Source: Robertmurraya dakarensis
Lineage (GTDB): Bacteria > Bacillota > Bacilli > Bacillales > Cytobacillaceae
Reading direction: 5' to 3'
DNA: 64,000 bases
Assembly: GCF_900156875.1 (NCBI RefSeq)
Contig: NZ_LT707408.1
Location: forward strand, 1,540,018 to 1,604,017
This document shows positions 30,665 to 52,928 of the stretch, piece after piece. Below the pieces are notes generated by a model, which ran no database searches, had not been told where the DNA came from, and saw only the letters and a list, made by a program, of their open reading frames with translations. Each line of letters opens with the position of its first letter. The stretch's first letter is position 1. A program made the translations under genes and the position numbers.

Positions 30665-30671
30665 TGAAAGC

Positions 30672-35808: not shown

Positions 35809-36714
35809 TTAGCTCCTTTTAAAATTAGTTTTGAAAAATTGTAAAAAGTGCTTCGCTTCAGCAGGCAAATGCTTATTCTTCGACCAGGCCGATGTATAAA
35901 ATAGATTCTCCAGCCTTTGTTCAACTAAAGGAATTAACAGAATTTCACCGCTTAAAACAAGAGGATCAGACTTTAAAGACAAATCCGGGAATATCGTGAT
36001 GGCGACCCCTTTTCCAACTGCTTTTTTGATTAGTTCCATATTATTAGAAATAAAGAGTATATTGATAGAACCATACTTTTTCTTGAGATCGTCAAATAAA
36101 GATTTCAATGAATCACTTTGATAAATAACAATAGACTGGTTCTTCAAATCTATAGGAGTAACAAACTTTTTCCCTGCTAAAGTAGAGTTTTGTTGAACAG
36201 CAACACACATATTGCCATCTGCTAATATATCAAAATCAAGCTCGTCTTCGTTATTCTTCATGGTAGTATCAGCTATCGCGGTAAAACCCATGTCCACGTT
36301 TTTTTCTTTCACTTCCTTAACAACCGCCCATGATCCTCTTTCTGTTATTTCGATATTGATATCAGGATGAACCTGCTTATAACGAAGCAAGAGTTCAGAT
36401 GTGATGGAAAATAAGCTTGGACAGATGGCGAGCTTCAACTCTTTTCTTTTATTTAAGGCTTGAATACTCGCTTCTTCTTTTAATAATTGTATCTTCAAAA
36501 TGACATCTTGAGCTCTTTCAACAATCCTTGTTCCTTCCTTCGTAAGAAAGACTCCAGTTCGCGTTCTATCAAAGATCTTAATCTGCAATTCTTCTTCTAA
36601 ACTATTAATCGCCTGGCTGATGGCCGGACGTGAAACAAAGAGATTTTGTGCAGCAAGGGACATCGAATTTGTTTTAGCGACCTCAATGATATAGTGCAAC
36701 TGCTCAATGTTCAT
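35809..36714 (-). CDS. LysR-family transcriptional regulator
   Basis: 301 residues. The winged-helix DNA-binding domain is at 1-60 (MNIEQLHYIIEVAKTNSMSLAAQNLFVSRPAISQAINSLEEEL in continuous form), and the periplasmic-binding-like effector domain runs from about 90. GGGGG lies 7 nt before ATG 36714. It is divergent from the SDR gene that opens the catabolic island and so is probably its regulator. An inverted repeat (GTAAGTAA...TTACTTAC) lies just upstream of its start. The effector is unknown, but an acyl-CoA or carboxylate intermediate of the island is a reasonable guess. Confidence 0.9.
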   Translation of the reverse strand: MNIEQLHYIIEVAKTNSMSLAAQNLFVSRPAISQAINSLEEELQIKIFDRTRTGVFLTKEGTRIVERAQDVILKIQLLKEEASIQALNKRKELKLAICPSLFSITSELLLRYKQVHPDINIEITERGSWAVVKEVKEKNVDMGFTAIADTTMKNNEDELDFDILADGNMCVAVQQNSTLAGKKFVTPIDLKNQSIVIYQSDSLKSLFDDLKKKYGSINILFISNNMELIKKAVGKGVAITIFPDLSLKSDPLVLSGEILLIPLVEQRLENLFYTSAWSKNKHLPAEAKHFLQFFKTNFKRS

Positions 36715-36985: not shown

Positions 36986-37747
36986 ATGGAAAATGTTCTT
37001 GATTTAACGGGGAAAGTCGCACTAATCACTGGGGGAAGCAGAGGTTTAGGTGCGCAAATGGCAAGAGATTATGCAAAGAACGGAGCAGATGTAGTCGTTG
37101 TCAGCCGAAATAAAGAAGCATGTGAAGAAGTCGCACATGAAGTAACTCAAATGAACCGAAGAGCGATTGCCCTCTCAGCTGATGTCACCAAGATGAGGGA
37201 TATTCAATCCATGCTGAAAACAACAATAGATGAGTTCGGCAAGCTGGATATTTTAGTTAATAATGCAGGGGCCAATGCAACAAATCCTGTATTAGAAGCA
37301 ACTGAGGAGGAATGGGACTTCATCTACAATATTAATCTGAAAGCTTTATATTTTTGCAGCCAGCAAGCTGCCAAGGTGATGATTCCTCAAAAAAGCGGAA
37401 AGATCATCAATATTTCTTCGATTGGGGGATCTCGTGCCTACCGGAATATTGCTGCTTATGGAGCTAGTAAGGCAGCGGTTATGCACTTGACTAGAACTTT
37501 CTCGAATGAATGGGCGCGCTACAATATTTTGGTGAATTCCATTGCACCAGGCCTAATCGCAACTGACATTAACAAAGATGATCTTGCTGATCCAAAAGTT
37601 TTAGACCGGATGCTGAAAATGATTCCGTTAAGAAGACTTGGGCAGCCATCAGATATTTCAGCAATGGCACTTTTCTTAGCTTCAGATGTTTCCAATTATA
37701 TTACGGGTCAAACATTTATTGTAGACGGCGGAAAATCCGTCGAATAA
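36986..37747 (+). CDS. SDR-family oxidoreductase
   Basis: 253 residues, classical short-chain dehydrogenase. ITGGSRGLGAQMA binds NAD(P), NNAG is at about 90, and the catalytic set is Ser of ISSIGG with YGASK (YxxxK). GGQTFIVDGG-type C-terminus (TGQTFIVDGGKSVE). AGGAGG precedes the ATG. First gene of the rightward island. Likely converts a hydroxy to an oxo group (or the reverse) on a CoA-bound or free acid. The exact substrate is not readable. Confidence 0.88.
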   Translation: MENVLDLTGKVALITGGSRGLGAQMARDYAKNGADVVVVSRNKEACEEVAHEVTQMNRRAIALSADVTKMRDIQSMLKTTIDEFGKLDILVNNAGANATNPVLEATEEEWDFIYNINLKALYFCSQQAAKVMIPQKSGKIINISSIGGSRAYRNIAAYGASKAAVMHLTRTFSNEWARYNILVNSIAPGLIATDINKDDLADPKVLDRMLKMIPLRRLGQPSDISAMALFLASDVSNYITGQTFIVDGGKSVE

Positions 37748-37808
37748 ACAGTACGAATTTCACTGCCTGTAAATCAACGATAAAACTTTTAAAACGGAGG
37801 AAATGATT

Positions 37809-38966
37809 ATGCCTTTAAGTTCGTTACGTATTTTAGATTTAAGCCGTCTTTTACCTGGTCCATATTGTTCGATGTTTTTTTCAGATTTCGGTGCAGAAGT
37901 TATTAAAATCGAAGAACCAAATCTAGGTGACTATGTTAGATGGAATGATACAAAAGTTGGGGAGAACAGTGCTGTATTCCATTCTCTTAATCGGAATAAA
38001 AAGAGTGTCACCCTAAATCTGAAGACCGAAAAAGGCAAGGAAGTATTTAGGAAATTAGTAGAGACTTCAGATATTGTACTAGAATCATTTCGTCCTGGGG
38101 TAATGGATCGACTAGGACTGGGCTATGAAGATTTGAAAAAAATAAACCCTGGAATCATTTATTGTGCCATTACAGGGTACGGTCAAGATGGTCCATATTC
38201 GCAAATGCCAGGACATGATATCAACTACCAGAGCTATGCCGGTTTACTAGGTTTGCAAGGTCATATCGAGGGGCCTCCAGTACTTTCAGCTATCCAAATT
38301 GCCGATATTGGAGGCGGTTCACAAATGGCCACGATTGGCATTCTCATTGCGCTTCAGGCAAGGAATCTAACAGGGGAAGGGCAGTTTGTGGATATTGCGA
38401 TGAGAGACGGAGTCATGTCTTGGATGCAATCCATGTACCCAGATTATTTTGTTAATAATAAGGTACTAGAAAAAGGGAAATTAAGATTGGGCGGTGGAAA
38501 AGCTTGTTATTACGCTTATGAAACAGCTGACGGACGCTATTTATCGGTTGGAGCATTGGAAGAGAAGTTTTGGAAGGTGTTCTGCACAGAAATTGAGGCT
38601 AAGCATCTAATCGAAAAATTAAATGCTCCTTTTGAAGTGCAGATGCAGATGAAAGCTGAGATTGCGGCCATCATTAAGAAGAAAACGCTAGAAGAATGGA
38701 ATGCTATTTTTGAAGGAAAAGATGCTTGTGTTTCACCAATCTTAAATATTGATGAGGTTGTTCAGGATCCGCAGGTAAAGGCTCGTAATATGGTCATTGA
38801 AAAAGATGGTGAAAAGTATCTTGGATTTCCTATCAAGCTATCAAAGACGCCTGGTGAAGTTAAAAAAAGTGCTCCTAATCTAGGAGAAGATAATCAAGAT
38901 ATTTTGACAGAGCTAGGCTATTCCGCGGAGGAAATTGAAGCATGGAAGAAAGATGGGATACTGTAA
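37809..38966 (+). CDS. Class III CoA-transferase (CaiB/BaiF family)
   Basis: 385 residues. N-terminal LRILDLSRLLPGPYCSMFFSDFGAEVIKIEEP is the family signature, followed by FHSLNRNKKSVTLNLKT, RPGVMDRLGLGYEDLKKINPGIIYCAITGYGQDGPYS and QIADIGGGSQMATIGILIAL, where the aspartate (about 168) is the residue that carries CoA. These enzymes move CoA between carboxylic acids. ATG 37809 has GGAGG 8 nt upstream. The ATG at 37803 is only 2 nt away. It follows the SDR gene by 61 bp. Probably activates the island's substrate at the expense of an acyl-CoA such as succinyl-CoA. Confidence 0.88.
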   Translation: MPLSSLRILDLSRLLPGPYCSMFFSDFGAEVIKIEEPNLGDYVRWNDTKVGENSAVFHSLNRNKKSVTLNLKTEKGKEVFRKLVETSDIVLESFRPGVMDRLGLGYEDLKKINPGIIYCAITGYGQDGPYSQMPGHDINYQSYAGLLGLQGHIEGPPVLSAIQIADIGGGSQMATIGILIALQARNLTGEGQFVDIAMRDGVMSWMQSMYPDYFVNNKVLEKGKLRLGGGKACYYAYETADGRYLSVGALEEKFWKVFCTEIEAKHLIEKLNAPFEVQMQMKAEIAAIIKKKTLEEWNAIFEGKDACVSPILNIDEVVQDPQVKARNMVIEKDGEKYLGFPIKLSKTPGEVKKSAPNLGEDNQDILTELGYSAEEIEAWKKDGIL

Positions 38967-39020: not shown

Positions 39021-40165
39021 ATGAAGATTGATGATATCAATACAATAACCGTGGTAGGCGCTGGCGATATGGGGCATGGTATTGCAGAATGTGCGCTGCT
39101 TGCGGGATACAAGGTGATCTTAACTGATATAAATCGAGATCAATTGCAGCGGGGAATAGAAAAGATTCACGCCAGTTTAGAGAAGTTGGAGAAGCAGGGG
39201 AAAATCAGCCAGGAAAAAATTGCATCGAGCCGGAACAATTTGCTATCCACGTTAGATCTCAAGGAAGCTGCAACACACGCTCAATTTGTTTATGAAGCGG
39301 TCCCAGAAGTGTTGTCGATTAAACAGAATTTGTTTAAGCAATTGGATGAGTGGACTTCTAAGGATACAATCCTTGCGACCAATACGTCCAATATGGTGAT
39401 TACGGATGTAGCGAAGTTTGCGCACTATAAGGATCGGATTGTCGGGACTCATTTTTTTAACCATGTTGTTATTATGGAAGTTGTTGAAGTCATTAAGGGT
39501 CGGTATACGTCTGAAGAAACGATGCAAGGTGCCTGCGATATGTGCGTCAAAATGAGTAAGGTTCCTATCCGAATCGAGAAAGAGAGTCCTAGTTTCATTG
39601 TCAATCGAGTGAATGGGGTGCTTCGTGTTTTCTTAGGTGCGGTGGTAGACAAGGGGATGGCCGAGCCGGAAGAAATCGATGCCATGATGAGATATCACGG
39701 AAAACCAATCGGCCACTTTGAACTGTCAGATTATGCGGCTTAGATGTCGTCTATGATTCCCTTCAATACCGTAAGAAGGCGCTTCACCCTGAATACGAAC
39801 CGTATCGAAGTCTTGTTGAAAAAGTACAGTTAAAGCAATTAGGCAAGAAGACAGGAAAGGGCTTTTATGATTGGTCAAATGGCCGGCCGGTTGTTGATGT
39901 GAATAAAAGGACAACGGCAATCACAATCGATGACATTGAGTTTGTGAAATTTAATGAAGCGGCAAAATTGGTAGAAGAGGGAGTATCTAATGTTAAGGAC
40001 ATTAATCTAGCCATGACGTTAGCAAACGGTGAACCGGAAGGGCCATTTCAAGTTGCGCAGCGATATGAGCTTAACGAGGTCATTAACCGGCTCGAGTATC
40101 TCTCAGAAAAGCTTGGCAAAGAAATCCTAAGACCAACTAGCTTATTGTTGGAGGAGAGTTCTTAA
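39021..40165 (+). pseudogene. 3-hydroxyacyl-CoA dehydrogenase, frameshifted
   Basis: The first frame encodes 240 residues (VVGAGDMGHGIAECALL NAD motif through FELSDYAA) and stops at 39743. One base is missing at about 39735. In the frame beginning at 39737 the protein continues GLDVVYDSLQYRKKALHPEYEPY to LLLEESS (stop 40165), matching the C-terminal domain of the intact neighbour at 40383. The catalytic segment reads HFFNHVVIMEVVEV instead of the usual HFFNP...LVEV, so other key positions have changed too. The gene has a good GGAGG site and was functional in the past. A sequencing error is possible but the altered motif argues for real decay. Confidence 0.85.
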
Positions 40166-40382
40166 AAACAAATAATTTCTATTATATTTACTGTTTCATT
40201 AATAAAATAGATTACTATCCTGTATTTTTTTGGTTATGTTCATCAAGATCATTGTTACTCTGTAGGTTGTATTTTCCTTTCAAGGTCAAATTATACCGAG
40301 AATTTAACAAAGATCTTCATGACATAGCCTTATTTTTCAAGAAGAAGTTAAGATTTATGACTGCAATTCGAGGAGGGTTACT

Positions 40383-41555
40383 ATGAGAGTTGGAAATATT
40401 AAGGACGTTGCTGTTATTGGAGCAGGGGACATGGGTCATGGTATTGCTGAGACAGCGCTGCTTGGGGGGCTTAACGTTTACTTAACGGATACCACCGAGG
40501 AGAATTTGCAAAGGGGCGTCGCGAATATTGAGAAGAGTCTAGTAAGGATGTTATCAGGTGGGAAAATTAGTGATGAAACAGTTGCAATGGCTAAGAAAAA
40601 CCTGCATCCTACTTTAGATTTCGAAGAAGCTGTTACGAAAGCACAATTTGTGTTTGAGGCGGTCCCTGAGGTGTTGGAAATAAAACAGAAGTTATTTCAA
40701 AAGCTGGAGGAATTAACTTCTAAAGAAACAATTCTTGCGACAAATACATCTAGCATGCTTATTTCTCAGATTTCACAATTTTTACATCACAAAGAGAGAG
40801 TGGTAGGGCTTCATTTTTTCAATCCAGTCGTGGTCATTCCATTAGTAGAAGTCATCAAAGGAAAAGATACAAGCAGTGAAGTGATGCAAACGGCTTACGA
40901 TTTATGTGTAAAAATGCATAAAACGCCTGTCAGAGTCGAAAAGGACAGTCCTAGCTTCATTATTAACAGGGTAAACGGACCTTCCCGCATCTACCTCGGT
41001 GCAGTAGTTGATAAGGGTGTTGCACAACCGGAAGAAATTGATGCGCTTATCCGTTATCATGGAAAACCAATTGGTAATTTTGAACTTTGTGATCATATTG
41101 GATTGGATGTTATCCATGATGCTTCCGAATATCGCAAAGGAGTACTTCACCCAGACTATGAGCCATATGAAAAGCTGAAAGAGAAAGTCCGTTTAAAAGA
41201 GTATGGTAAGAAAACAGGAAAAGGGTTTTACGATTGGTCAAACGGACGGCCAACCATCGATCTTAGTAAACGTACAGATAAAGTGAAAATCGAGGATATG
41301 GACTTTATTAAATTCAACGAAGCTGTAAAGCTATTAGAAGAAGGGGTATCGAACGTACACGACATTGATCTGGCCTTTAGACTAACAGGAGATGAGAAGG
41401 GTCCTTTTGAAGCTGTTCAGAATTTTGAGTTGAAAGAGATCGTTCAGCGTCTAGAATTCTTGTCAGATCGATATGGAAAAGAGATCTTAAAGCCAGCGAA
41501 AATGTTGTCTGAATATTATGATGATGAACAATGGTTAGTGGGAATTGGAAAGTAA
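40383..41555 (+). CDS. 3-hydroxyacyl-CoA dehydrogenase
   Basis: 390 residues. Rossmann motif VIGAGDMGHGIAE at 11-23, ATNTSSM, the catalytic histidine segment GLHFFNPVVVIPLVEV, DSPSFIINRV, and a C-terminal 3HCDH domain (GLDVIHDASEYRKGVLHPDYEPY...KTGKGFYDW). A second, shorter helical region follows (about 290-390, FIKFNEAVKLLEEGVSN). Oxidises L-3-hydroxyacyl-CoA to 3-oxoacyl-CoA with NAD. GAGGAGGG stands 7-8 nt before the ATG. It is a tandem duplicate of the frameshifted gene at 39021 and would be the working copy. Confidence 0.9.
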   Translation: MRVGNIKDVAVIGAGDMGHGIAETALLGGLNVYLTDTTEENLQRGVANIEKSLVRMLSGGKISDETVAMAKKNLHPTLDFEEAVTKAQFVFEAVPEVLEIKQKLFQKLEELTSKETILATNTSSMLISQISQFLHHKERVVGLHFFNPVVVIPLVEVIKGKDTSSEVMQTAYDLCVKMHKTPVRVEKDSPSFIINRVNGPSRIYLGAVVDKGVAQPEEIDALIRYHGKPIGNFELCDHIGLDVIHDASEYRKGVLHPDYEPYEKLKEKVRLKEYGKKTGKGFYDWSNGRPTIDLSKRTDKVKIEDMDFIKFNEAVKLLEEGVSNVHDIDLAFRLTGDEKGPFEAVQNFELKEIVQRLEFLSDRYGKEILKPAKMLSEYYDDEQWLVGIGK

Positions 41556-41599
41556 TGAGGTAAGCATTCAAATTTAGGTATCTGAATCAGGCGAAGGAC

Positions 41600-41665
41600 G
41601 GTCAAATTTTCCCTGTCACTTTTGACCTGAGAAGGACGTCGGGCCTACTATAAGGCCTTCCTGCT
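41600..41665 (+). terminator. Two stem-loops after the dehydrogenase gene
   Basis: GGTCAAA (41600-41606) pairs with TTTGACC (41621-41627). GGCCT and AGGCC form a second stem at 41642-41657, followed by CTGCTTTT. The second is the probable terminator and the first may be an extra regulatory hairpin. The rest of the 330-bp gap up to 41886 shows nothing recognisable apart from the AGGAGG site of the next gene. Confidence 0.5.
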
Positions 41666-41886
41666 TTTAACAATCAACATATTATAATCCCGGTCAAATT
41701 AAAGATGTAATGATAAGAAATCGGTGGTTATGTCCCTGATGGTATAAAGAAGCATCAAGGGAATGTTCTAAACAGGACGAAAAGTGGATAAGCATATATA
41801 GGATAAAACAAAAGACTACTGACATAAAGTAAATTCATATAAAAAACAACGTGGTTAGTTCTAAACTAAAAATAGGAGGTAAGATT

Positions 41887-42831
41887 ATGGCTGCAATCAA
41901 TTCGGTTACAGGACAAATTCAAAGTTCAGAGCTGGGGTATACGTTAATACATGAGCATCTCCGTGTTCGTTCAGAGTCAGTGGCTGTGCAGTTTCCACAT
42001 CTCTTTGATGAGGAATACGAATACGGGCAGGCTGTTAAGCAGATTAATGCTGTGATGGAGCGTGGTGTAAAGACGATTTGTGACCCAACTGTTATGGAAG
42101 CGGGAAGAGATATTCGTTTTATGGAAAAGGTGGCGCTTGAAACGGGGATTCAGATCATAGCAGCAACGGGAATTTATACGTATCATTATGTAGCCCCGCA
42201 TTTTCAATACCGGGACATTGATTATATGGCAGACGTATTTGTGAGGGACATTGAGGTTGGCGTGCAAGGCACCTCAATTAAAGCGGGTTTCCTAAAATGT
42301 GCAACAGATGCACAGGGGATTACTCCAGATGTTGAAAAGGTGATTCGAGCAGTTGCACGTGCTCATCATAAAACAGGAGTTCCGATCATGACGCATTCAC
42401 ATCCCGCGAGTGGTACAGGGCTGCAGCAGCTGGACATTCTTCAAGATGAAGGAGTAGATCCAAAACATATTTTGATAGGACATTGCGGTGATACTGATAA
42501 TCTTGAATATCTTTTAAAAGTACTAGATAGAGGTGCTTTTATCGGAATGGACCGGTACGGTGCCAGTAAAGTAATGGGAGCAGAAAAGAGAAATGCTGCA
42601 GTCATTGAGCTAGCAAAAAGAGGATATGCCGAGCAAATGTTTCTATCTCAAGATTATTGCTGTACAATTGATTGGTTTGATCAGGAGTTCATTAAAAAAC
42701 ACCTCCCTAAATGGTCCATGACCTATGTAATCGATGAAATTATTCCAGAATTAAAAAAGGATGGAGTAACAGAAAAACAAATTGAGACTATGATGGTCGA
42801 AAATCCTAAAAGATGGTTAATAGGCAGATAG
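41887..42831 (+). CDS. Phosphotriesterase-family hydrolase (copy 1)
   Basis: 314 residues, amidohydrolase-type PTE fold. Metal-site motifs are LIHEHL (HxH, about 21-23), the bridging lysine in IKAGFLKCATD, MTHSHP, LIGHCGD and FLSQDYCC (aspartate). Family members hydrolyse phosphotriesters, lactones (including acyl-homoserine lactones) or other esters. An ester or lactone of the island's substrate is more likely than an organophosphate here, but that is inference. ATG 41887 has AGGAGG 7 nt upstream. A copy follows at 43055. Confidence 0.85.
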   Translation: MAAINSVTGQIQSSELGYTLIHEHLRVRSESVAVQFPHLFDEEYEYGQAVKQINAVMERGVKTICDPTVMEAGRDIRFMEKVALETGIQIIAATGIYTYHYVAPHFQYRDIDYMADVFVRDIEVGVQGTSIKAGFLKCATDAQGITPDVEKVIRAVARAHHKTGVPIMTHSHPASGTGLQQLDILQDEGVDPKHILIGHCGDTDNLEYLLKVLDRGAFIGMDRYGASKVMGAEKRNAAVIELAKRGYAEQMFLSQDYCCTIDWFDQEFIKKHLPKWSMTYVIDEIIPELKKDGVTEKQIETMMVENPKRWLIGR

Positions 42832-42874
42832 ATTAATAGAGGATATTGGCAATAAAGGAATAGAGTGATATTTT

Positions 42875-42899
42875 AACTGCTTTGGCAGTTTCTTTTTTA
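42875..42899 (+). terminator. Terminator between the two phosphotriesterase-like genes
   Basis: AACTGC and GCAGTT (42875-42890) with loop TTTG, followed by TCTTTTTT. So the two copies are separate transcription units. Confidence 0.75.
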
Positions 42900-43054
42900 A
42901 TTTATTATTATTTAAAAATTAAGTATTTTCAGATATTTAATTTTGTACTATGATTAATATTAGATAGGACATTTTATAAGGATGATTTACATAATTTTCT
43001 GTCTAATAGTTAAATAGTTTGTAAAAACCTAACCTTGAAAGGAGCCGATCAGTA

Positions 43055-43999
43055 ATGACTGAAATTAATACCGTAACCGGCAAGATCGATAGTTCGGAGC
43101 TTGGATGTACTTTAATTCATGAACATCTTCGTTCACGTTCAGAAGAGGTGGCTGTGCAATTTCCACGGCTTTATGATGAAGAATTTGAAACAAGTGAAGC
43201 TATTTCCCAATTAAATGAGGTTAAGGCTAGAGGAGTTAATACCGTTTGCGACCCTACCGTAATGGGGTTAGGGCGAGATGTTCTGTTTATGGAAAGAATT
43301 TCGCGTGAGACGGGTGTTCAGGTGATCGCAGCGACTGGAATTTATACTTATCATTATATTGCCCCTCATTTTCAAAATCGTGATATCGATTATATGGCAG
43401 ATCAATTTGTTCAAGATATCGAGGTTGGTGTACAGAATACATCCATTAAAGCTGGTTTTCTAAAATGTGCAACCGATCGTCAAGGAATGCAGAAGGATGT
43501 GGAAAAGGTGATTCGCGGAGTGGCAAGAGCCCACTTGCGCACGGGCGTACCCATTATGACACATTCTCATCCTGCAAGCGGAACCGGTCTGATGCAGTTG
43601 GATATTTTAGAGGAAGAAGGAGTTAATCTGGAAAACGTCTTGATAGGACATTGCGGTGATACAACTGATATTGAATATATTCTAAGGGTTCTTGACAGAG
43701 GTGCCTATATTGGAATGGACCGATATGGAATTAAGACGCGGCTTTCCACTGAAGACAGAAATGCTACTGTTATTGAATTAGTCAGAAGGGGTTACGCAGA
43801 TCGGATGTTCCTTTCGCAGGATAGCTGCTGTACGATCGACTGGTTCCCGCCAGAGGTTAAAAAAGCGTCAAATCCAGATTGGACGATGACATTTGTAGTT
43901 GATGAAGTCATCCCTCAATTGAAGAGAGCTGGTGTATCAGACGAGCATATCCATACAATGATGTATGAGAATGTTCAGCGCTGGTTTGCAGGGAAATAA
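43055..43999 (+). CDS. Phosphotriesterase-family hydrolase (copy 2)
   Basis: 314 residues, co-linear with and clearly similar to the gene at 41887. The same metal-site motifs are present: LIHEHL, IKAGFLKCATD, MTHSHP, LIGHCGD, FLSQDSCC. Differences are spread evenly, so this is an old duplication with both copies kept intact. AAAGGAG stands before the ATG. The histidine phosphatase gene follows after about 35 bp and is probably co-transcribed. Confidence 0.85.
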   Translation: MTEINTVTGKIDSSELGCTLIHEHLRSRSEEVAVQFPRLYDEEFETSEAISQLNEVKARGVNTVCDPTVMGLGRDVLFMERISRETGVQVIAATGIYTYHYIAPHFQNRDIDYMADQFVQDIEVGVQNTSIKAGFLKCATDRQGMQKDVEKVIRGVARAHLRTGVPIMTHSHPASGTGLMQLDILEEEGVNLENVLIGHCGDTTDIEYILRVLDRGAYIGMDRYGIKTRLSTEDRNATVIELVRRGYADRMFLSQDSCCTIDWFPPEVKKASNPDWTMTFVVDEVIPQLKRAGVSDEHIHTMMYENVQRWFAGK

Positions 44000-44033
44000 C
44001 GTCAAGAAAAGATAATAATTGGAGTGTGGAATT

Positions 44034-44669
44034 TTGACTATATATCTAGTACGTCATGGGGAAGCTTGGCATAATGTTGATTCGTCTGTTATGAAAGAGG
44101 CCCATGATTCACAGCACAATTTAACGGAAATCGGTCAGGAGCAAGCGAAAGAGACAGCACAGTTCTTAAAAAATAAACTAAATGAGAACACTGTTTTTTA
44201 CAGCTCTCCTTACAAGCGTGCCTTGCAAACGGCTCAGGCGATACGTGAAGCATTGCCGCATGAGGTTCCGCTCTATGAAAATCCACTTCTAAGGGAGTGG
44301 GAGTTAGGAAATCTTTATGATGTAAATGATCGTCCGCCAGAGGTAAAAAAAGAATATAAAGCCGCAGGACGTTTTTATTTTCGTTTTCGAAATGGTGAGT
44401 CGTTGGCGGATGTATATTTGAGGGGCAATGTTTTTGCAAATGCTGTTCTACAACGAATACTAAATCAGCAGCGTTATGAGGATATTGTTATTGTTTCTCA
44501 TGCTGGGTTTATGCACCTATTCATGACTGTTTTAATGCAGCTGCCGGAACAGCAGGTTGAGAACTTTACGCTGCTGGAATCGATTGAGAATGCTTCTGTT
44601 CTTCAATTACATGAGAAAGACGATGGTACTTATGGGTATCAGAAGATCTTTGTTCCGTCTATTAAATAG
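44034..44669 (+). CDS. Histidine phosphatase family protein (copy 1)
   Basis: About 211 residues, phosphoglycerate-mutase-like. The N-terminal YLVRHGEAWHNV holds the phospho-accepting histidine, YSSPYKRALQTAQAIRE supplies the second arginine, LREWELGN carries the acid, and VIVSHAGFMHLF the second histidine. Substrates in this family range from sugar phosphates to cofactors, so the role is unknown. TTG 44034 was chosen, with GGAGTG about 7 nt upstream. It directly follows the second phosphotriesterase-like gene, hinting that it removes phosphate from a related product. Confidence 0.8.
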   Translation: MTIYLVRHGEAWHNVDSSVMKEAHDSQHNLTEIGQEQAKETAQFLKNKLNENTVFYSSPYKRALQTAQAIREALPHEVPLYENPLLREWELGNLYDVNDRPPEVKKEYKAAGRFYFRFRNGESLADVYLRGNVFANAVLQRILNQQRYEDIVIVSHAGFMHLFMTVLMQLPEQQVENFTLLESIENASVLQLHEKDDGTYGYQKIFVPSIK

Positions 44670-44690
44670 ATTTTTTTTAAAAAAAGATTT

Positions 44691-44716
44691 CCCTATCCTG
44701 CTGATAGGGATTATTT
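44691..44716 (+). terminator. Hairpin after the first histidine phosphatase
   Basis: CCCTATC and GATAGGG (44691-44709) with loop CTGCT, followed by ATTATTTATT. The T-tail is weak. Confidence 0.55.
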
Positions 44717-44750
44717 ATTAATTTGATAATTCTGACTATTAATACCTTTC

Positions 44751-44781
44751 ACTTTACCCATGATAATAATCTTGGTAAAGT
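44751..44781. promoter_or_regulatory. Inverted repeat before the second histidine phosphatase
   Basis: ACTTTACC (44751-44758) and GGTAAAGT (44774-44781) are perfect inverse copies 15 bp apart. They lie about 90 bp upstream of the start with no T-tail, so an operator is more likely than a terminator. The binding protein is unknown. Confidence 0.4.
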
Positions 44782-44870
44782 AAAGTATAGATTGTTATTT
44801 TTATATAGGCTCTCTTACATTTCATCGAAGGGCCCTTCAATATAAAAAGCCAACTTAAGGGGTGGAATAT

Positions 44871-45503
44871 TTGACTATTTATCTTATTCGTCATGGAGAA
44901 TCAGAACATAATGTGGATTATACGTTAATGGAACATATTCACGATTCAGCACATAATTTAACTGAGTTAGGGCATAAGCAAGCAAAGGCAGCAGCTGAAT
45001 TTCTAAAATCCAAGGTAAGTGACAAAACGGTTTTGTATAGTTCCCCATACAACCGCACAATGCAAACAGCAGAGGCGATACGTTCTGTACTGCCAGAGAA
45101 TGTTCCGTTTTATCAAAATCCACTGCTGCGCGAGTGGGAACTGGGGAATCTTCTTAATATTAATAATCGAACTCCAGAATTGAAAAGAGAATATAAAGCA
45201 GCTGGTAAATTTTATTACCGCTATCCTAACGGTGAATCGATGGCAGATGTCTATCTGCGCGCGGCGATGTTTTATAGTACGGCTCTTCAGCGAATTGAGC
45301 AACAACAGCGTTATGAGGATGTCTTGCTTGTTACTCATTCTGCTTTTATTCATGCGTTTTTAACCTTTATTATGCAATATCCTATCGATAATGAAAATAA
45401 ACAAAAACCATTTGAAAATGCATGTGTGATTGCCATTAATGAAATTGATGGCGACTATCAGCATGATAAGATTTTTGTACCGAAAGTGAATGTGACGAAT
45501 TGA
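44871..45503 (+). CDS. Histidine phosphatase family protein (copy 2)
   Basis: About 210 residues, similar along its length to the gene at 44034: YLIRHGESEHNV, YSSPYNRTMQTAEAIR, LREWELGN, LLVTHSAFIHAF. The active-site histidines and arginines are conserved, so it should be an active phosphatase or mutase-like enzyme. TTG 44871 follows AAGGGGTGG at good spacing. GTG 44862 lies inside the ribosome site and is unlikely. It has its own upstream inverted repeat and terminator, unlike copy 1, so it may be regulated separately. Confidence 0.8.
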   Translation: MTIYLIRHGESEHNVDYTLMEHIHDSAHNLTELGHKQAKAAAEFLKSKVSDKTVLYSSPYNRTMQTAEAIRSVLPENVPFYQNPLLREWELGNLLNINNRTPELKREYKAAGKFYYRYPNGESMADVYLRAAMFYSTALQRIEQQQRYEDVLLVTHSAFIHAFLTFIMQYPIDNENKQKPFENACVIAINEIDGDYQHDKIFVPKVNVTN

Positions 45504-45525: not shown

Positions 45526-45563
45526 TGCAGGGTGAAACCATTGGGTTCACCCTGCAATTTTTA
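45526..45563 (+). terminator. Terminator of the second histidine phosphatase gene
   Basis: TGCAGGGTGAA (45526-45536) and TTCACCCTGCA (45546-45556) form a perfect 11-bp stem, followed by ATTTTTAG. Confidence 0.88.
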
Positions 45564-45716: not shown

Positions 45717-46475
45717 GTGAGCGATAAATCAGTTATCCAGTCAGTGCAGAAAGCTGCTATCATCTTAAAGCTTTTTAATAAAAAAGAGCCCATGTTAACT
45801 CTTCAAGAAATTCATCAAAAAACAGGTTTTACGAAAACTACTGCAATGAGATTTTGTACTACACTTACAAGTATTGGATTTTTGGAAAAAGTTTATATCG
45901 GGCAAGCCCCTTATTATCGTTTAGGGATTGAGCTGTTTACGATTGGAAGTACGGTAATTAACACAATTGATCTACCCGAGAGGGCAAGGAAGTATTTACA
46001 GGAGATATCCAACACTCTTGAGGATAATTCATACCTATTTATTGTTCGTAATAATAAGGCGTATTGTATTGATGCTGTCAAGGGAAGTTACTATATTCAA
46101 GATGCTACGACAAATATTGGGGATGTGTTACCGCTTAATATTGGAGGAGGTCCTCTTGCAATTCTGGCTTATATACACATGGATGATCAAAATCAAATTA
46201 TTGATTCCTTTAATTTGAATGATGAAGAAAGGAAGGAATTAAAAGAAAGGTTAGAAAATATTCGTACAGCAGGATATTCATTTAGCAGCAATGAGACTAA
46301 CCTTAATACATCAGCAATCGGAGTTCCAATCTTTAATCATGAAGGTAAAGTGGTTGGATCACTCAGCGTAGGGGGTATTGAAATAAGATTTAATAAAGAT
46401 CGGGTGCCCAAAATAATCGAAGTCATAAGAGAAGCAGGGTATAAGTTTTCAAGAGAACTTGGGTGGCAGGGTTGA
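45717..46475 (+). CDS. IclR-family transcriptional regulator
   Basis: 252 residues. The N-terminal winged helix-turn-helix is SVQKAAIILKLFNKKEPMLTLQEIHQKTGFTKTTAMRF (about 8-46, read in pieces), and the ligand-binding IclR domain runs from about 80 to the end (NIGDVLPLNIGGGPLAILA, NLNTSAIGVPIFNHEGKVVGSLSVGG). The start is GTG 45717 with AAAAGGAGGG about 10 nt upstream. It is followed by a terminator and then the alcohol dehydrogenase operon, which it probably controls. A TTCCG-N5-CGGAA palindrome in that promoter is a candidate operator. Confidence 0.88.
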   Translation: MSDKSVIQSVQKAAIILKLFNKKEPMLTLQEIHQKTGFTKTTAMRFCTTLTSIGFLEKVYIGQAPYYRLGIELFTIGSTVINTIDLPERARKYLQEISNTLEDNSYLFIVRNNKAYCIDAVKGSYYIQDATTNIGDVLPLNIGGGPLAILAYIHMDDQNQIIDSFNLNDEERKELKERLENIRTAGYSFSSNETNLNTSAIGVPIFNHEGKVVGSLSVGGIEIRFNKDRVPKIIEVIREAGYKFSRELGWQG

Positions 46476-46730: not shown

Positions 46731-47780
46731 GTGGAGAGTATACTTCTCGAAAATATTGAAGGCAAAACAAAAGCAGTGTTGAGAGATATCAAAATACCTA
46801 AAATTGAAGAAGGTCAGGTATTAGTAAGGGTAAGGCGTGCTGGAATTTGTGGGACGGATTTAAAATTGTACACTGGGAATTATCCCGTCGATGAACATGT
46901 ACTACCGTTTGTTCTAGGTCATGAATTTATGGGTGAAGTTATTGAGGTTGGAGACAAGGTAACAAAAGCTGCTATCGGAGACCGTATCGTCGCCACTCCA
47001 GGATATGGGGGCTGCGAACAATGCCGGTACTGTGAACGGGGGCAATTAAAACTTTGTAAAAACAGAAAGCGGATGGGATTTAATTGTGATGGTGTATTTT
47101 CTGAATACGTGAAATTGAATGAAGATCAAATTTTTCTTCTTCCAGATAGTATTTCAGATGATGCCGCAGCTATGATTGAACCACTATCAGTAGCAGTCAG
47201 CGGTGTTTATAAAGCTGACATAAAGCCGACAGATACAATCCTTGTAACTGGTCCAGGAGCAATCGGTCTACTTACCTCCCTCGTAGCTAAACAGTTTGGG
47301 GCAACAGTGATTGTATGCGGAACAACTGCCGATACGGACCGTTTGAAGATTGCTGAGCAAATGGGTGTCGATATCACTGCTCTTTCTAGTGACTTACCGG
47401 ACCTGCTTCAACGTGAAAAAATAACAATCGACATTGTTTTAGAGTGTTCCGGAAATGCTAATGCGGTTAATCTTGGTATAAATGTATTGCGTCCAAATGG
47501 ACAATTCGTTCAAATCGGAACGGCTTCAAAGCCTGTAACTGTTTCTTTTATGAACATAGCTTATAAAGAGCTAAGAGTAACAGGAAGTATTGGGGCGTTA
47601 AAAGAGGATTGGGATATTGCCATAAATTTAATGGAAAAGGTTCAATCTAAAGCACTTTTAATCATAAAAAAACATCTGCCTTTTAAAGATTTTGATAAAG
47701 GGTTTGAAGAATGTCTCCAAAATGGCGGACCGAAAATTTTGCTATCTCCAACATCAACTTTAGGAGCCCATAAAAAATGA
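46731..47780 (+). CDS. Zinc-dependent alcohol dehydrogenase (MDR family)
   Basis: 349 residues. Catalytic zinc ligands lie in AGICGTDLKLY and LGHEFMGEV. The structural zinc loop is GGCEQCRYCERGQLKLCKNR, and NAD binding is VTGPGAIGLLTSLVAKQFGA (about 165-185). This is the sorbitol/threonine/butanediol dehydrogenase branch of the medium-chain family and oxidises a secondary alcohol or polyol with NAD. The start is GTG 46731 with AAAGGGAGTG upstream. First gene of the operon ADH-SDR-ALDH-TPP enzyme. Substrate not readable. Confidence 0.88.
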   Translation: MESILLENIEGKTKAVLRDIKIPKIEEGQVLVRVRRAGICGTDLKLYTGNYPVDEHVLPFVLGHEFMGEVIEVGDKVTKAAIGDRIVATPGYGGCEQCRYCERGQLKLCKNRKRMGFNCDGVFSEYVKLNEDQIFLLPDSISDDAAAMIEPLSVAVSGVYKADIKPTDTILVTGPGAIGLLTSLVAKQFGATVIVCGTTADTDRLKIAEQMGVDITALSSDLPDLLQREKITIDIVLECSGNANAVNLGINVLRPNGQFVQIGTASKPVTVSFMNIAYKELRVTGSIGALKEDWDIAINLMEKVQSKALLIIKKHLPFKDFDKGFEECLQNGGPKILLSPTSTLGAHKK

Positions 47781-47850: not shown

Positions 47851-48612
47851 ATGAACTTACATAATTCAGTTAGCTGGATTACAGGTGCTGCAGGTGGAAT
47901 TGGCCAAGCAACATGTCACCAATTAGCAAATGCAGGTAGTCATCTTGTAATCACGGATCTAGATTTTGAAAAAGTTAATGATCTAGCATCTGTACTTAAA
48001 GAAAAGGGAGTAGAGGTATTACCGCTGCAACTCGATGTATCCGATCAATCTGCAGTTGAACAAGCAGGGAAACAGATTAGAGAAAAGTTTGGCAGGTTAG
48101 ACATCCTTGTAAATGGTGCAGGGATTTCTCCAAAAGGACCAAATGGCAGAGTTCCAATCGAACAATTATCTAGTGATGAGTGGCTAAAGGTATTAAATAT
48201 TAATTTAAATGGCGCATTTTATTGCAGCCAAGTAGCCGCCAGGATGATGAAGGAAGCTGGCAAAGGACATATCGTAAATATTGCATCACAAGCTGGCCGG
48301 ACATTTAGTTCGATAACGGCGGCACATTATTCAGTGAGCAAAGCGGGCATCATTGCATTGACACGACAACTTGCTGGGGAGCTAGGTGAACATGGGATTT
48401 ATGCAAATGCAGTTGCACCCGGAAGAATTGACACGCCGATGATTCGGGACGTAGCAAAAGAAGTAAACGAGCGAGTGATCGCGAAAACACCATTAGGGCG
48501 GCTGGGTACCCCTGAAGAGGTAGCGAAAACAATTTTATTCCTTGCATCAGATTATTCAAGCTTTATTACTGGAACAGTAGTTGATGTAAATGGCGGTACA
48601 TTTATAGCGTAA
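47851..48612 (+). CDS. SDR-family oxidoreductase
   Basis: 253 residues. ITGAAGGIGQATCHQLANAG binds NAD(P). NGAG replaces the usual NNAG. The catalytic elements are NIASQAG and YSVSK. It ends TGTVVDVNGGTFIA. AGGAGG lies 7 nt before the ATG. It sits between the zinc alcohol dehydrogenase and the aldehyde dehydrogenase and so probably carries out another redox step on the same carbon skeleton. Confidence 0.87.
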   Translation: MNLHNSVSWITGAAGGIGQATCHQLANAGSHLVITDLDFEKVNDLASVLKEKGVEVLPLQLDVSDQSAVEQAGKQIREKFGRLDILVNGAGISPKGPNGRVPIEQLSSDEWLKVLNINLNGAFYCSQVAARMMKEAGKGHIVNIASQAGRTFSSITAAHYSVSKAGIIALTRQLAGELGEHGIYANAVAPGRIDTPMIRDVAKEVNERVIAKTPLGRLGTPEEVAKTILFLASDYSSFITGTVVDVNGGTFIA

Positions 48613-48659: not shown

Positions 48660-50096
48660 TTGATTAATAATAGAGTTAAGAAAAAACTGCTTATTGATGG
48701 TAATTGGATTGAAACAGAAGAATATACAAATCTTATTTCACCATACTCGGGAAAAGTCATTGCAGAAATTCCTATCGCTTCATCGGAGGATGTCAACATG
48801 GCTGTTAAGGCAGCAGAACAGGCCAAAGAAATAATGGCAAAGATGCCTGCCCATCAGCGTGCTGGAATTTTAGAAAAGTTGGTTGTGTTATTAACAGAAA
48901 AGGCAGAACAAGCAGCAGAGATTATTGCTCTTGAAGCAGCTAAGCCTATCACTACCGCGCGAGTTGAAGTTAGCCGAACTATTCAAACTTACAAGTTTGC
49001 AGCCGAAGAAGCAAAACGGATAAATGGCGAGACTGTTCCATTGGATGCTGCCCCAGGTGGAGAGGGTAGAGTTGCTTTTACACTCCGTGAACCTCTTGGG
49101 ATAATTGGTGCTATTACCCCATTTAACTTTCCTATGAATCTTGTAGCACATAAAATTGGTCCTGCGATTGCAACAGGCAATACGATTGTGCTAAAACCAG
49201 CGTCGCAAACACCATTGTCAGCTTTCTTTATCGGAGAATTGCTGTTAGAAGCAGGATTGCCTGATGGTGCATTAAACATTGTGACTGGCAGTGGCAGTGT
49301 GGTAGGAGAAAGAATTACCTTAGATGAACGTATAAATTTGATTACTTTTACTGGAAGTCCACCTGTAGGGATTGGTATTCGAAATAAGGCGGGGTTGAAA
49401 CGAGTTACACTTGAACTAGGCTCTAACTCTGCTGTCATTGTTGACAATGGGATAGATATTAATAAAATGATCGGGCGGTGTGTAAGCGGAGCCTTCTCAT
49501 ATCAAGGTCAAGTATGTATATCCCTACAGCGTATCTATGTACATGAAAATTTGTATGATTCCTTTATTGAAAAATTCCTCCATGAAACAAAGAAACTAAA
49601 ACTAGGTGATCCGCTTGATCCTTCAACGGATGTATCAGCCTTAATTAATACTAGGGAAACTGACCGTGTATTAGCTTGGATAGAGGAAGCTCAGAACGGT
49701 GGAGCAAAAATTGCGGTTGGCGGCTCGGTGGATGGGCGCGTTCTACAACCAACAGTGCTTGTCGATGTTAATCCATCCCTCAAAGTTTCATGCCAAGAGG
49801 TTTTTGCACCTATTGTAACCATTGAAAAATTTACTACTATGGAGCAGGCTATTAATATGGTTAACGATTCACGGTTCGGTCTCCAAGCAGGTATTTATAC
49901 AAATGATATTCACACTGCGCTTAATGCTGCTGAGAAACTTCATGTAGGTGGTGTGCTAATCAACGATATCCCGACATTCCGTGTTGATAACATGCCATAT
50001 GGCGGCGTTAAAGAAAGCGGTATGGGCCGTGAAGGAATTAAATATGCGGTTGAAGAAATGACAGAGTTAAAGTTAATTATCTTTAATCGAAATTAA
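48660..50096 (+). CDS. NAD(P)-dependent aldehyde dehydrogenase
   Basis: 478 residues, ALDH superfamily. PFNFPMNLVAHKIGPAIATGNTIVLKPA is the cofactor-binding stretch, ELGSNSAVIV carries the general-base glutamate, and QGQVCISLQRIYVHE carries the catalytic cysteine. Later come EVFAPIV and PYGGVKESGMGREG. Oxidises an aldehyde to an acid (or to acyl-CoA in the CoA-acylating subgroup, which cannot be excluded). The start is TTG 48660 with AGGAGGTGG upstream. Third gene of its operon, before the thiamine enzyme whose aldehyde product it could use. Confidence 0.9.
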   Translation: MINNRVKKKLLIDGNWIETEEYTNLISPYSGKVIAEIPIASSEDVNMAVKAAEQAKEIMAKMPAHQRAGILEKLVVLLTEKAEQAAEIIALEAAKPITTARVEVSRTIQTYKFAAEEAKRINGETVPLDAAPGGEGRVAFTLREPLGIIGAITPFNFPMNLVAHKIGPAIATGNTIVLKPASQTPLSAFFIGELLLEAGLPDGALNIVTGSGSVVGERITLDERINLITFTGSPPVGIGIRNKAGLKRVTLELGSNSAVIVDNGIDINKMIGRCVSGAFSYQGQVCISLQRIYVHENLYDSFIEKFLHETKKLKLGDPLDPSTDVSALINTRETDRVLAWIEEAQNGGAKIAVGGSVDGRVLQPTVLVDVNPSLKVSCQEVFAPIVTIEKFTTMEQAINMVNDSRFGLQAGIYTNDIHTALNAAEKLHVGGVLINDIPTFRVDNMPYGGVKESGMGREGIKYAVEEMTELKLIIFNRN

Positions 50097-50191: not shown

Positions 50192-51943
50192 ATGAGTAAT
50201 GTTACTGAAACAAATTCTGCGATAAATGAAGCAGTGAATGAGAATTTAGAAGCAACTAATGCTCAAAGAATTGCCATGGCTCTTAAGAGAAATGGTGTGA
50301 AGGTTATTTTTGGGCAAAGCAACCCTCATACGATTATGTTAGCAGCTATGGACCTTGGTATTAGGCAAGTTGGATTTAGACAGGAAAATTCCGGTTCCTA
50401 TATGGCACAAGGTTATGGAATGTGTGCTGGCACAGTACCTGTGGTAGCAGCACAAAATGGGCCTGCGGCAACATTGTTAGTACCGGGGTTAGCTGAGTGT
50501 TTAAAAGCTTCTCATCCAGTAGTCGCGCTTGTTGATGAAATCGCAAGGACAAATGAGGAAAGAAATGCATTTCAAGAAATGGATCAAGTTCAGTTATTTT
50601 CTGGTGTTGCTAAATGGGTTAAAAAGATCCCGTCTGAGGATAGAATTGAAGATTATGTTGATATGGCATTTACAGCTGCAGCAAGCGGTAGACCGGGACC
50701 TGCTGTATTGCTTTGTCCTAAAGATTTAACATTTGATACAAAAAAATATCCAATTAAATCGGATAGAGCAGCCAGTCTTGGGGAATATCCATTGGATAGA
50801 ACGGTTGCCGATCCCGTGAAAATTGAAGAAGCTGCAAAACTATTAGCCAATGCAAAGCGTCCGCTTATTTATGCAGGGGGAGGAGTAATCTCATCAGGTG
50901 CAAGCAATGAACTACGCCAAATTCAAGAGGAATGTTCAATTCCTGTCGCTACAACGACAATGGGCAAAGGGTCCGTCGGAGAGGATCACCCATTAACACT
51001 TGGGCCGATCGGGTATTACATGGGGAACAGAGGAGCAACTAAATTCTTAAAACCAATGGTTCAGGATGCGGATGTTATTCTATTAGTTGGAAATCGGACA
51101 AATCAGAATGGTACTGACTCTTGGACCTTGCTGCCAAAAGATGCAGCCTATATTCATATCGATATTGATTCAATGGAAATAGGGAGAAACTATGAGGCAT
51201 TAAGATTGGCAGGCGATGCCAAACTAACTTTAGCAGCTTTAAAAAATTCTCTCTTAAGAAATGATTTGCAAAAACGTATAGAAAATCGTCCAATTATTGA
51301 AGAAATTATTGCAAAAGCAAGAGTTTCTCATCTGGAGGAAGCTGTAAATGTTAAGACTTCAAACGAGTCACCAGTTAAGATTGAAAGATTTCTAGCTGAA
51401 CTTGATAAGCAGTTAGTAGAGGATCATATTATAGTCGCTGATGCAAGCTTTTCATCCATCTGGCTTTCAAATTATATTAAAGCAAAGGGCAATCGGAAAT
51501 TTATTTTCCCAAGAGGAATAGCTGGGCTTGGATGGGGGCTGCCTATGGCAATGGGGGCAAAAATTGCTAAACCAGGGAACAAAGTCTTTTGTCTTGCTGG
51601 CGATGGAGGATTTGGCCATGTGTGGAGCGAGCTGGAGACATGTAAGAGAGAAGGAATAAATGTTGTGATCGCCGTAATAAATAATGAAATTTTAGCTTAT
51701 CAAAAGTTAGCTGAAGAAGCTCAGTGGGGAAGAAGCACAAACGCTACTGATTTAACGGCTGTAAATCATGCAAAAGTAGCGGAAGCATGTGGGGTTAAAG
51801 GAATCAGAGTTGAATCACCACAGGAAATTGAATCAGCTTTAAAAGAAGCCTTTGCAGCAGATGGGCCTGTTGTAATAGATTTAGTTACAGACCCTCGATG
51901 CATACCGCCGCTTCCGTTCATGAGCGTCCTCGAAAATGTTTAA
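50192..51943 (+). CDS. Thiamine-diphosphate enzyme, acetolactate synthase-like
   Basis: 583 residues with the three-domain TPP-enzyme layout. The catalytic glutamate is in GFRQENSGSYMAQGYG (about 65), the central domain has PLIYAGGGVISSGA, and the cofactor motif is AGDGGFGHVWSELET followed by VIAVINNEILAYQ (GDG...NN). Relatives include acetolactate synthase, oxalyl-CoA decarboxylase, 2-hydroxyacyl-CoA lyase, sulfoacetaldehyde acetyltransferase and others. No regulatory subunit gene is adjacent, so ordinary branched-chain biosynthesis is unlikely. Together with CoA-transferase and aldehyde dehydrogenase genes, a lyase acting on a 2-hydroxy or 2-oxo acid (or its CoA ester) is plausible but unproven. 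Strong terminator downstream. Confidence 0.8.
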   Translation: MSNVTETNSAINEAVNENLEATNAQRIAMALKRNGVKVIFGQSNPHTIMLAAMDLGIRQVGFRQENSGSYMAQGYGMCAGTVPVVAAQNGPAATLLVPGLAECLKASHPVVALVDEIARTNEERNAFQEMDQVQLFSGVAKWVKKIPSEDRIEDYVDMAFTAAASGRPGPAVLLCPKDLTFDTKKYPIKSDRAASLGEYPLDRTVADPVKIEEAAKLLANAKRPLIYAGGGVISSGASNELRQIQEECSIPVATTTMGKGSVGEDHPLTLGPIGYYMGNRGATKFLKPMVQDADVILLVGNRTNQNGTDSWTLLPKDAAYIHIDIDSMEIGRNYEALRLAGDAKLTLAALKNSLLRNDLQKRIENRPIIEEIIAKARVSHLEEAVNVKTSNESPVKIERFLAELDKQLVEDHIIVADASFSSIWLSNYIKAKGNRKFIFPRGIAGLGWGLPMAMGAKIAKPGNKVFCLAGDGGFGHVWSELETCKREGINVVIAVINNEILAYQKLAEEAQWGRSTNATDLTAVNHAKVAEACGVKGIRVESPQEIESALKEAFAADGPVVIDLVTDPRCIPPLPFMSVLENV

Positions 51944-52004: not shown

Positions 52005-52042
52005 AAAAGGATGATTCCATTTAAATGGAGCATCCTTTTTTT
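52005..52042. terminator. Terminator between the TPP enzyme and the convergent lysR gene
   Basis: AAAAGGATG (52005-52013) pairs with CATCCTTTTT (52031-52040). The interior ATTCCATTTAAATGGA also pairs. The right arm is followed by TTAT and contains the lysR stop codon. Confidence 0.85.
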
Positions 52043-52928
52043 ATGGGAGATTGTTTTTATCTAGATATTCCTTGGCGAAGGATAGAAAATTATGAACAGA
52101 TGGTGATTTTTCATCTTTCCTCCAAGCTAAGGCAGTCTTAAGTTCTGTAATAGGTCTCAACTCTCTAAACACGATCTTTGGATTGGGGTGTTGTTGCATG
52201 GTTAACTTTGAGACAATAGAAACTCCCATGCCTGAAGCGACACAAGATATAATCGTAGGTAATCCTAGTACCTCCTGTACAATTTTTGGAGAAAAACTAG
52301 ACTGATTACATATGTACTGAATATGGTCAAAAAACAATGAGGTCCGAGAAGATACAACAAAAGGTTCATCTTCTAGTTCTTTAACTTTAAGTGGAGTCGT
52401 ATCTCCTGCGAGTGAATGTGTCAATGGCAAAATAACGCCATTAGGCGAAATGCTGATAGTTTGAAAGTGTATTAATTTATTTTCAAAAGGCGGCAGTACT
52501 CCAATATGAATTCTTCCTTCTTGTAAATCTTCAATGATATCAACTGACAATGATTGCTTAAATATAATTTCAACGTCAGGGAACTTTTCTCGAAATAAAA
52601 GTAAAATTCTCATTAACACAACGTTTACCCCGCTTGCATAGCTAATTAAGATAGTTCCACGTCTTCCTTCTGCTGCTTTAAGGGAATCTTTGCATGCTTT
52701 ATCAATCCTATTTAAAATCTTATATGAATGATCCAAAAAAACCTTTCCTGCATCGGTTAACTGTACGGTTTGTTTAGTACGAAAAAAAAGTTCGGTTCCT
52801 ATTTCATCCTCTAACTGTTTTATTTGCCTGCTTAGCGGAGGCTGAGAAATATTTAAACGAGAAGCTGCCCTGCCAAAATTTAATTCCTCAGCGACGGCAA
52901 CAAAGTATTTTAAATGACGTAGTTCTAT
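52041..52928 (-). CDS. LysR-family regulator with an ATA codon at the expected start
   Basis: Read from 52928 the frame is open for 295 residues, the normal LysR length: ELRHLKYFVAVAEELNFGRAA, SRLNISQPPLSRQIKQLEDE and GTELFFRTKQTVQLTDAGKVF form a complete DNA-binding domain, then the effector domain to the stop. The codon before Glu2 is ATA (52928-52926), exactly where homologues have Met, with AAAGGGGG 8 nt upstream. An in-frame TAG lies 33 bp further up with no ATG, GTG or TTG between. The first standard start would be TTG 52736, which would remove the whole DNA-binding domain. So either ATA is used as a weak start or an ATG has mutated. Divergent from tctBA. Confidence 0.8.
   Translation of the reverse strand: MELRHLKYFVAVAEELNFGRAASRLNISQPPLSRQIKQLEDEIGTELFFRTKQTVQLTDAGKVFLDHSYKILNRIDKACKDSLKAAEGRRGTILISYASGVNVVLMRILLLFREKFPDVEIIFKQSLSVDIIEDLQEGRIHIGVLPPFENKLIHFQTISISPNGVILPLTHSLAGDTTPLKVKELEDEPFVVSSRTSLFFDHIQYICNQSSFSPKIVQEVLGLPTIISCVASGMGVSIVSKLTMQQHPNPKIVFRELRPITELKTALAWRKDEKSPSVHNFLSFAKEYLDKNNLP

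Follow-up and report, generated by a model that had tools for sequence, protein, structure and literature searches.

Paired phosphotriesterase-like lactonase genes in an acyl-CoA catabolic region of Robertmurraya dakarensis and a candidate variant of lactone catabolism

What kind of compound would be degraded by a region in which phosphotriesterase-like (PTE) and histidine-phosphatase (HP) genes stand among genes for acyl-coenzyme A (acyl-CoA) catabolism? The question is raised by positions 41887 to 45503 of a 64,000-nucleotide stretch of Robertmurraya dakarensis DNA (assembly GCF_900156875.1, contig NZ_LT707408.1, positions 1,540,018 to 1,604,017; hereafter the window), for which an original prediction had proposed that a PTE-fold enzyme opens a lactone or ester, that the phosphatase then acts on the released product and that the route may be undescribed. 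The interval holds four genes in the order PTE1, PTE2, HP1 and HP2, 41887 being the ATG of PTE1 and 45503 the final base of HP2; both kinds of enzyme are thus doubled, which the prediction had omitted (PTE1 and PTE2 are 69% identical, HP1 and HP2 58%), and a third doubled gene, encoding the 3-hydroxyacyl-CoA dehydrogenases HAD1 and HAD2 (61% identical), lies just upstream of PTE1. With moderate confidence, we propose that the region encodes a variant of lactone or hydroxy-acid catabolism in which PTE-type lactonases would feed a CoA route or a route through a thiamine diphosphate (ThDP)-dependent enzyme. Sequence comparison establishes the protein family, the active-site residues and a partial recurrence with CoA-ligase, CoA-transferase, carboxylate-transporter and ThDP-enzyme genes.

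Lactonase features of PTE1 and PTE2

The two PTE proteins match Pfam PTE with 306.7 and 293.5 bits (cut-off 22.4) and reach no NCBIfam cut-off. Their closest solved relatives are SsoPox (2vc5, 1.2e-92), 4rdy and the PTE homology protein 4if2, which we take to be PPH of M. tuberculosis, while the true phosphotriesterases follow far behind (2r1p, 2.1e-41); organophosphate degradation was rejected because the nearest solved relatives are of the lactonase type. When 34 family rows were aligned with SsoPox (3 of 38 rows left out; two row pairs identical), positions 22, 24, 137, 170, 199 and 256, presumably the ligands of the binuclear metal site (HxH, carboxylated Lys, two His and Asp), proved to be kept in all 34 family rows including PTE1 and PTE2, and Arg223 is equally invariant (34/34). 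Both window copies also share Cys258 and Trp263 with the SsoPox-type lactonases (2vc5, 4if2), as well as Tyr97 (SsoPox numbering; Tyr99 in GkaP and the place of Trp131 in true phosphotriesterases), which occurs in 31 of the 34 rows. This lactonase tyrosine holds the lactone (PMC4338136). Because the closest solved relative is SsoPox and both the metal ligands and the lactonase tyrosine are kept, the assignment of PTE1 and PTE2 as phosphotriesterase-like lactonases with predicted lactone- or ester-opening activity is well supported.

The family differs from SsoPox in the residue before the metal Asp, which is Gln in 33 of 34 rows and His in SsoPox, and in a loop 8 that is two residues shorter; PTE2 in addition carries Ser257, found in no other row, at a position where 25 of the 34 rows have Tyr. 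In the PTE tree, PTE2 groups weakly (91/77) with a PTE of one distant genome of the order (G043) and not with PTE1, on which ground a recent local duplication was rejected; both window copies lie outside the starred sets, and the bootstrap support had yet to stabilise.

Recurrent partners and the proposed route

To place the pair in context, 25 PTE loci were taken from a named-genome scan with two short peptide patterns, which samples close relatives, and these, with two loci from G043, were searched for homologues of the window proteins at E<=1e-8 (27 loci; some end at contig edges). The clade was found in Bacillaceae, Paenibacillus and Alicyclobacillus records. When the next-door open reading frames (ORFs) of at least 110 aa were considered in 22 loci (ten neighbours run through Pfam, the others judged from similarity or by eye), an acyl-CoA ligase adjoined PTE in four (L015, L017, L019 on the opposite strand, and L023; one Pfam-verified, the others in the same neighbour cluster) and a class III CoA-transferase was the upstream ORF in two (L020, Pfam-verified, and L021), i.e., a CoA-activating gene adjoins PTE in 6 of 22 relatives' loci. 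Further next-door ORFs were IclR in 2/22, TctC after PTE in L026 and TRAP DctM before PTE in L011. A ligase homologue also adjoins the third PTE of the source genome (contig C11), an annotated ligase adjoins the PTE of a Tsukamurella plasmid, and the PTE of a Priestia plasmid is flanked by a gene annotated as 2,4'-dihydroxyacetophenone dioxygenase family protein and by an MFS transporter. Clustering of the neighbours (28 loci and part of the window) placed the acyl-CoA ligase family in five loci and, with the window counted, the ThDP enzyme in five, alcohol dehydrogenase (ADH) in four and two groups of short-chain dehydrogenases (SDR) in four each.

The ThDP enzyme of the window passes PRK06112 ('acetolactate synthase catalytic subunit'; 799 bits, cut-off 673), whereas solved ThDP enzymes are distant from it, the best scoring 204 bits (ancestral acetolactate synthase) and the 2-hydroxyacyl-CoA lyases about 179 or less. 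Homologues with 66-75% identity occur no more than 10 kb from PTE in four of the 27 loci (L020, L021, L030 and L038). In G043, IclR, ADH and ThDP-enzyme genes stand together. In another genome, G078, the ThDP enzyme is found with SDR, ADH, a TRAP-type transporter and IclR, with no PTE nearby. At the level of gene neighbourhoods, acyl-CoA ligase, class III CoA-transferase, carboxylate transporters and the ThDP enzyme are thus recurrent partners of PTE in part of the loci. The idea of a PTE-fold enzyme opening a lactone or ester next to CoA catabolism is strengthened by these neighbours and by the SsoPox-type residues.

The window genes concerned are as follows.

35809 to 36714, minus strand: LysR-type regulator, divergent from the cluster (Pfam HTH_1 and LysR_substrate)
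36986 to 37747, plus strand: SDR1, passing two broad NCBIfam subfamily models ('glucose 1-dehydrogenase' and '3-oxoacyl-ACP reductase FabG')
37803 to 38966, plus strand: class III CoA-transferase, below every NCBIfam cut-off
39021 to 40165, plus strand: HAD1, with the frame broken near 39735 (ORF end 39743, rest in another frame)
40383 to 41555, plus strand: HAD2, intact, 390 aa
41641 to 41658, plus strand: terminator-like hairpin 3' of HAD2 (hairpin scan)
41887 to 42831, plus strand: PTE1, phosphotriesterase-like lactonase (Pfam PTE; alignment)
42875 to 42890, plus strand: terminator-like hairpin 3' of PTE1 (hairpin scan)
43055 to 43999, plus strand: PTE2, phosphotriesterase-like lactonase (Pfam PTE), with Ser for the usual Tyr adjoining the metal-binding Asp
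44019 to 44669 (ORF as listed), plus strand: HP1, histidine phosphatase branch 1; alternative start TTG at 44034
44690 to 44710, plus strand: terminator-like hairpin 3' of HP1 (hairpin scan)
44862 to 45503, plus strand: HP2, histidine phosphatase branch 1 (Pfam His_Phos_1; alignment with a solved phosphatase)
45526 to 45556, plus strand: inverted repeat 3' of HP2, possible terminator
45717 to 46475, plus strand: IclR-type regulator; a 65% identical IclR adjoins the same ThDP enzyme in G043 (contig C18)
46491 to 46521, plus strand: inverted repeat followed by a T-rich stretch 3' of IclR, possible terminator
46731 to 47780, plus strand: zinc-type ADH
47851 to 48612, plus strand: SDR2
48660 to 50096, plus strand: aldehyde dehydrogenase (ALDH)
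50192 to 51943, plus strand: ThDP-dependent enzyme, PRK06112 subfamily
53194 to 55243, plus strand: TctB and TctA of a tripartite carboxylate transporter
55312 to 56171, plus strand: two MaoC/FAS1-type dehydratase genes
56217 to 57392, plus strand: thiolase
57499 to 59121, plus strand: acyl-CoA ligase (AMP-binding)

The acyl-CoA setting that had been predicted is borne out on both flanks, with SDR, CoA-transferase and 3-hydroxyacyl-CoA dehydrogenases upstream of PTE1 and the Tct transporter, dehydratases, thiolase and ligase downstream of HP2, where a FabG-like SDR is also found. The minus-strand ORF at 52041-52736 encodes a LysR substrate-binding domain protein, which as listed gave no DNA-binding domain match.

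In the proposed route, PTE1 and PTE2, two old and diverged lactonase copies, would hydrolyse a lactone or similar ester to a hydroxy acid, which the class III CoA-transferase or the acyl-CoA ligase would convert to a CoA thioester for breakdown by 3-hydroxyacyl-CoA dehydrogenase, MaoC dehydratases and thiolase; alternatively, the ADH/SDR/ALDH set would oxidise the acid and the ThDP enzyme would cleave it. We infer the lactone chemistry in vivo, the order of the steps and the substrate. We also put forward, as speculative and rather unlikely, the idea that the route represents an unnamed module of Bacillota: an SsoPox-type lactonase would open the lactone, and a PRK06112-type ThDP lyase, accompanied by ADH, SDR, ALDH and an IclR regulator, would split the product after its oxidation. 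In this genome, fixed and diverged pairs of dehydrogenase, lactonase and phosphatase would extend the module to a second, related compound.

The lactone or ester half of this route is close to a known type (PMC6262395 and PMC6476934). The qsd operon of Rhodococcus erythropolis comprises the PTE-like lactonase QsdA, the acyl-CoA ligase QsdC and QsdR (PMC6262395), and the likeness, which is by gene content, lies in the coupling of a PTE-type lactonase to CoA activation. Ligase adjacency of the qsd kind is present in the four relatives' loci with a next-door ligase and absent in the window, where the nearest CoA-activating gene is the class III CoA-transferase and the ligase is 13.5 kb off. The window further differs in its LysR and IclR regulators, with no divergent TetR-type regulator in the set of 20 window proteins analysed with Pfam, and in its HAD, HP and ThDP genes. 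The coupling of a PTE-type lactonase to CoA activation is already known from qsd, and what is likely new is the variant. Among titles and abstract openings, with subscription journals thinly covered, no cluster of a PTE-lactonase with CoA-transferase, ThDP enzyme or histidine phosphatase was found; the piperine amidohydrolase pathway (PMC12753220) is a different system and was set aside.

Histidine phosphatases and the question of a phosphorylated substrate

The HP proteins match Pfam His_Phos_1 with 113.9 and 117.1 bits (cut-off 21.7), which, with the Pfam PTE scores, confirms the predicted presence of both kinds of gene. The RHG motif and the later His of HP2 align with those of the phosphatase 1ebb, and HP1 keeps both. 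These features are shared with histidine phosphatase branch 1 (PhoE-like 1h2e/1ebb, fructose-2,6-bisphosphatase), whereas the pair falls below the NCBIfam cut-offs and belongs to a rare subfamily, found in 2 of 299 sampled genomes of the order (E<=1e-30) and 1 of 398 of the phylum (E<=1e-35), the source genome being counted in both. HP1 and HP2 are about as similar to each other (57.8%) as each is to the HP of G043 (55.3 and 58.5%). Because the third codon positions differ most (0.56, with 0.17 at second positions), the pair bears the mark of purifying selection since its split, a comparison that cannot say on which copy the selection acted.

Across the same 299 genomes, PTE (E<=1e-60) was found in 10, the HAD2 type (E<=1e-80) in two and the ThDP enzyme (E<=1e-200) in only three, with thresholds picked while viewing the data; the source genome (G000) and G043 belong to all four sets. 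This PTE was not found at E<=1e-60 in six other genomes of the genus, two of them only about 80% complete. G043, an assembly of about 130 contigs, has PTE on C16 and C34, HP on C48, HAD on C22 and C17, and the ThDP enzyme on C18; one distant genome thus contains all four families, yet the genes are on separate contigs and form no fixed operon.

These distributions bear on the suggestion that a phosphorylated ester or lactone is first opened by PTE and then dephosphorylated by HP. PTE2 and HP1, separated by 19-34 bp, may be cotranscribed, the active-site residues match those of a phosphatase, and both HP-bearing genomes have this PTE. No HP homologue was found, however, in any of the 27 PTE loci, the HP of G043 adjoins a thioesterase away from the PTE genes, the phospho-furanose lactonase model NF045706 is far from met by the PTE proteins (77.5 and 59.0 bits, cut-off 630), and no kinase is among the 20 Pfam-run window proteins. 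A phosphorylated substrate was rejected as the leading explanation on the first three of these grounds, and we consider it improbable. The expected conservation of the neighbourhood therefore holds for the lactonase with CoA-related genes, in part of the loci, and fails for the HP partner. The observation that the prediction had named as refuting it, a PTE-HP pair common in unrelated contexts, did not arise, since no other locus examined had the pair. HP1 and HP2 are probably functional phosphatases or mutases that contribute to the pathway marginally or not at all and stand outside its recurrent core.

One pathway or a catabolic hot spot

Terminator-like hairpins follow HAD2, PTE1 and HP1, and inverted repeats follow HP2 and IclR, which suggests several transcription units; this is suggestive only, because the hairpin scan overall is near its shuffles (15 found, mean 11.5, standard deviation 3.9) and the promoter scan is without signal (53 found, shuffle mean 54.8, standard deviation 8.3). 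A single operon was rejected on the same hairpins, with the same reserve. No shared operator was found in 14 upstream regions, the best 16-mer with at most 2 mismatches occurring in 8/91 pairs versus 14/182 in shuffles, and scans for sigma-54 and cre consensus gave no site. Since hairpins or inverted repeats stand between the units and no upstream motif exceeds the shuffles, induction of the island as a unit is doubtful.

The region is also rich in diverged tandem pairs. Six occur in it (HAD, PTE, HP, TctC, DctP and ribonucleotide-reductase-R2-like), at 39021-45503 and 60289-62622 in the window and downstream in L080 (13765-16052) and L081 (17169-18986), and their order runs gene by gene (A1A2B1B2C1C2). 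With a tandem pair defined as ORFs of at least 120 aa on the same strand, at most two ORFs apart and at least 40% identical, and with transposase pairs excluded on both sides, six pairs were counted in 88 ORFs from the window start to C10 1659700 (about 120 kb), versus one in 323 ORFs (400 kb elsewhere in the genome; Fisher p 0.0005, the control stretches being hand-picked, not random). Fourfold sites differ by 0.62-0.70, near saturation, in the four window pairs (PTE, HP, HAD and TctC), which are accordingly read as old and diverged. HAD1 and HAD2 are 61.3% identical, about as HAD1 is to its homologue on C22 of G043 (60.9%), and the part of HAD1 beyond the frameshift still aligns with HAD2. 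HAD1 has His where the HFFNP stretch of HAD2 has Pro. Three ribonucleotide-reductase-R2-like genes lie near ALDH- and Fe-ADH-like genes (L081 10683-18986; by eye, one Pfam-run).

The left border of the region is possibly at 35.8 kb, because the order of six window genes is conserved in two relatives from the genus up to 32021-35419 and no window gene is matched in the next fetched 6-7 kb; window genes 23284-31826 are also missing in these relatives, so that gene order is already broken before 35.8 kb. Foreign base composition was rejected, the GC content being 0.385 in 35.8-64 kb versus 0.378 in 8-35.8 kb. On the other side, the catabolic region extends past the window, where two identical IS110-type genes are found. 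A tandem array of 479-aa IS240-type transposase genes (unit 1846 bp) lies at window positions 1648-6779 and contig C10 ~1535559-1541000, with three window copies whose proteins are 100% alike, three more just upstream and an irregular step between; it is either a real amplification or an assembly artefact.

It is possible, although we think it unlikely, that the genes for the lactonases, HAD, HP and the ThDP enzyme were acquired independently of one another and gathered at a catabolic hot spot without forming a single pathway; the PTE proteins may be lactonases in that case too. Such an origin would fit the suggested separate transcription units without a shared operator, the homologues spread over six contigs in G043, and the IS110-type genes with many further catabolic-type genes downstream; it fits less well with the recurrence of the ThDP enzyme, ADH or SDR near part of the PTE clade and with the IclR-ADH-ThDP grouping in G043. 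The readings considered here overlap, and their probabilities do not sum to one.

Several observations weigh against the lactone or hydroxy-acid route that we favour. The likely division into several units and the lack of a shared operator mean that a single pathway is not proven, and the acyl-CoA ligase is remote from PTE2. No HAD2 homologue was found in the 27 PTE loci (E<=1e-8), and the presence of both the HAD2 type and HP in the PTE-bearing G043 hints at a wider link that this route does not explain. The overlap of PTE and ThDP enzyme in the order is weak without the source genome (p ~0.06; numbers too small to lean on). Because of the shorter loop 8 and Ser257 of PTE2, the substrate may depart from classical lactones. 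Lastly, about 8 of the 22 loci (L016, L018, L022, L025, L027, L039, L044 and L047, mostly by eye) have no clear catabolic neighbour, which would also suit quorum-quenching or detoxifying lactonases outside carbon catabolism. SsoPox hydrolyses acyl-homoserine lactones. The related lactonase QsdA does so as well (PMC6262395); both window copies, however, sit inside a region of carboxylate uptake and CoA genes, and we give such a function little chance.

If the lactone or hydroxy-acid route is correct, it would point to lactones or similar esters as substrates that can be tested for this lactonase clade, would name the PRK06112 ThDP enzyme as its partner and would widen lactone catabolism beyond the qsd type. 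PTE1 and PTE2 provide a natural pair of predicted lactonases with differing active-site residues.

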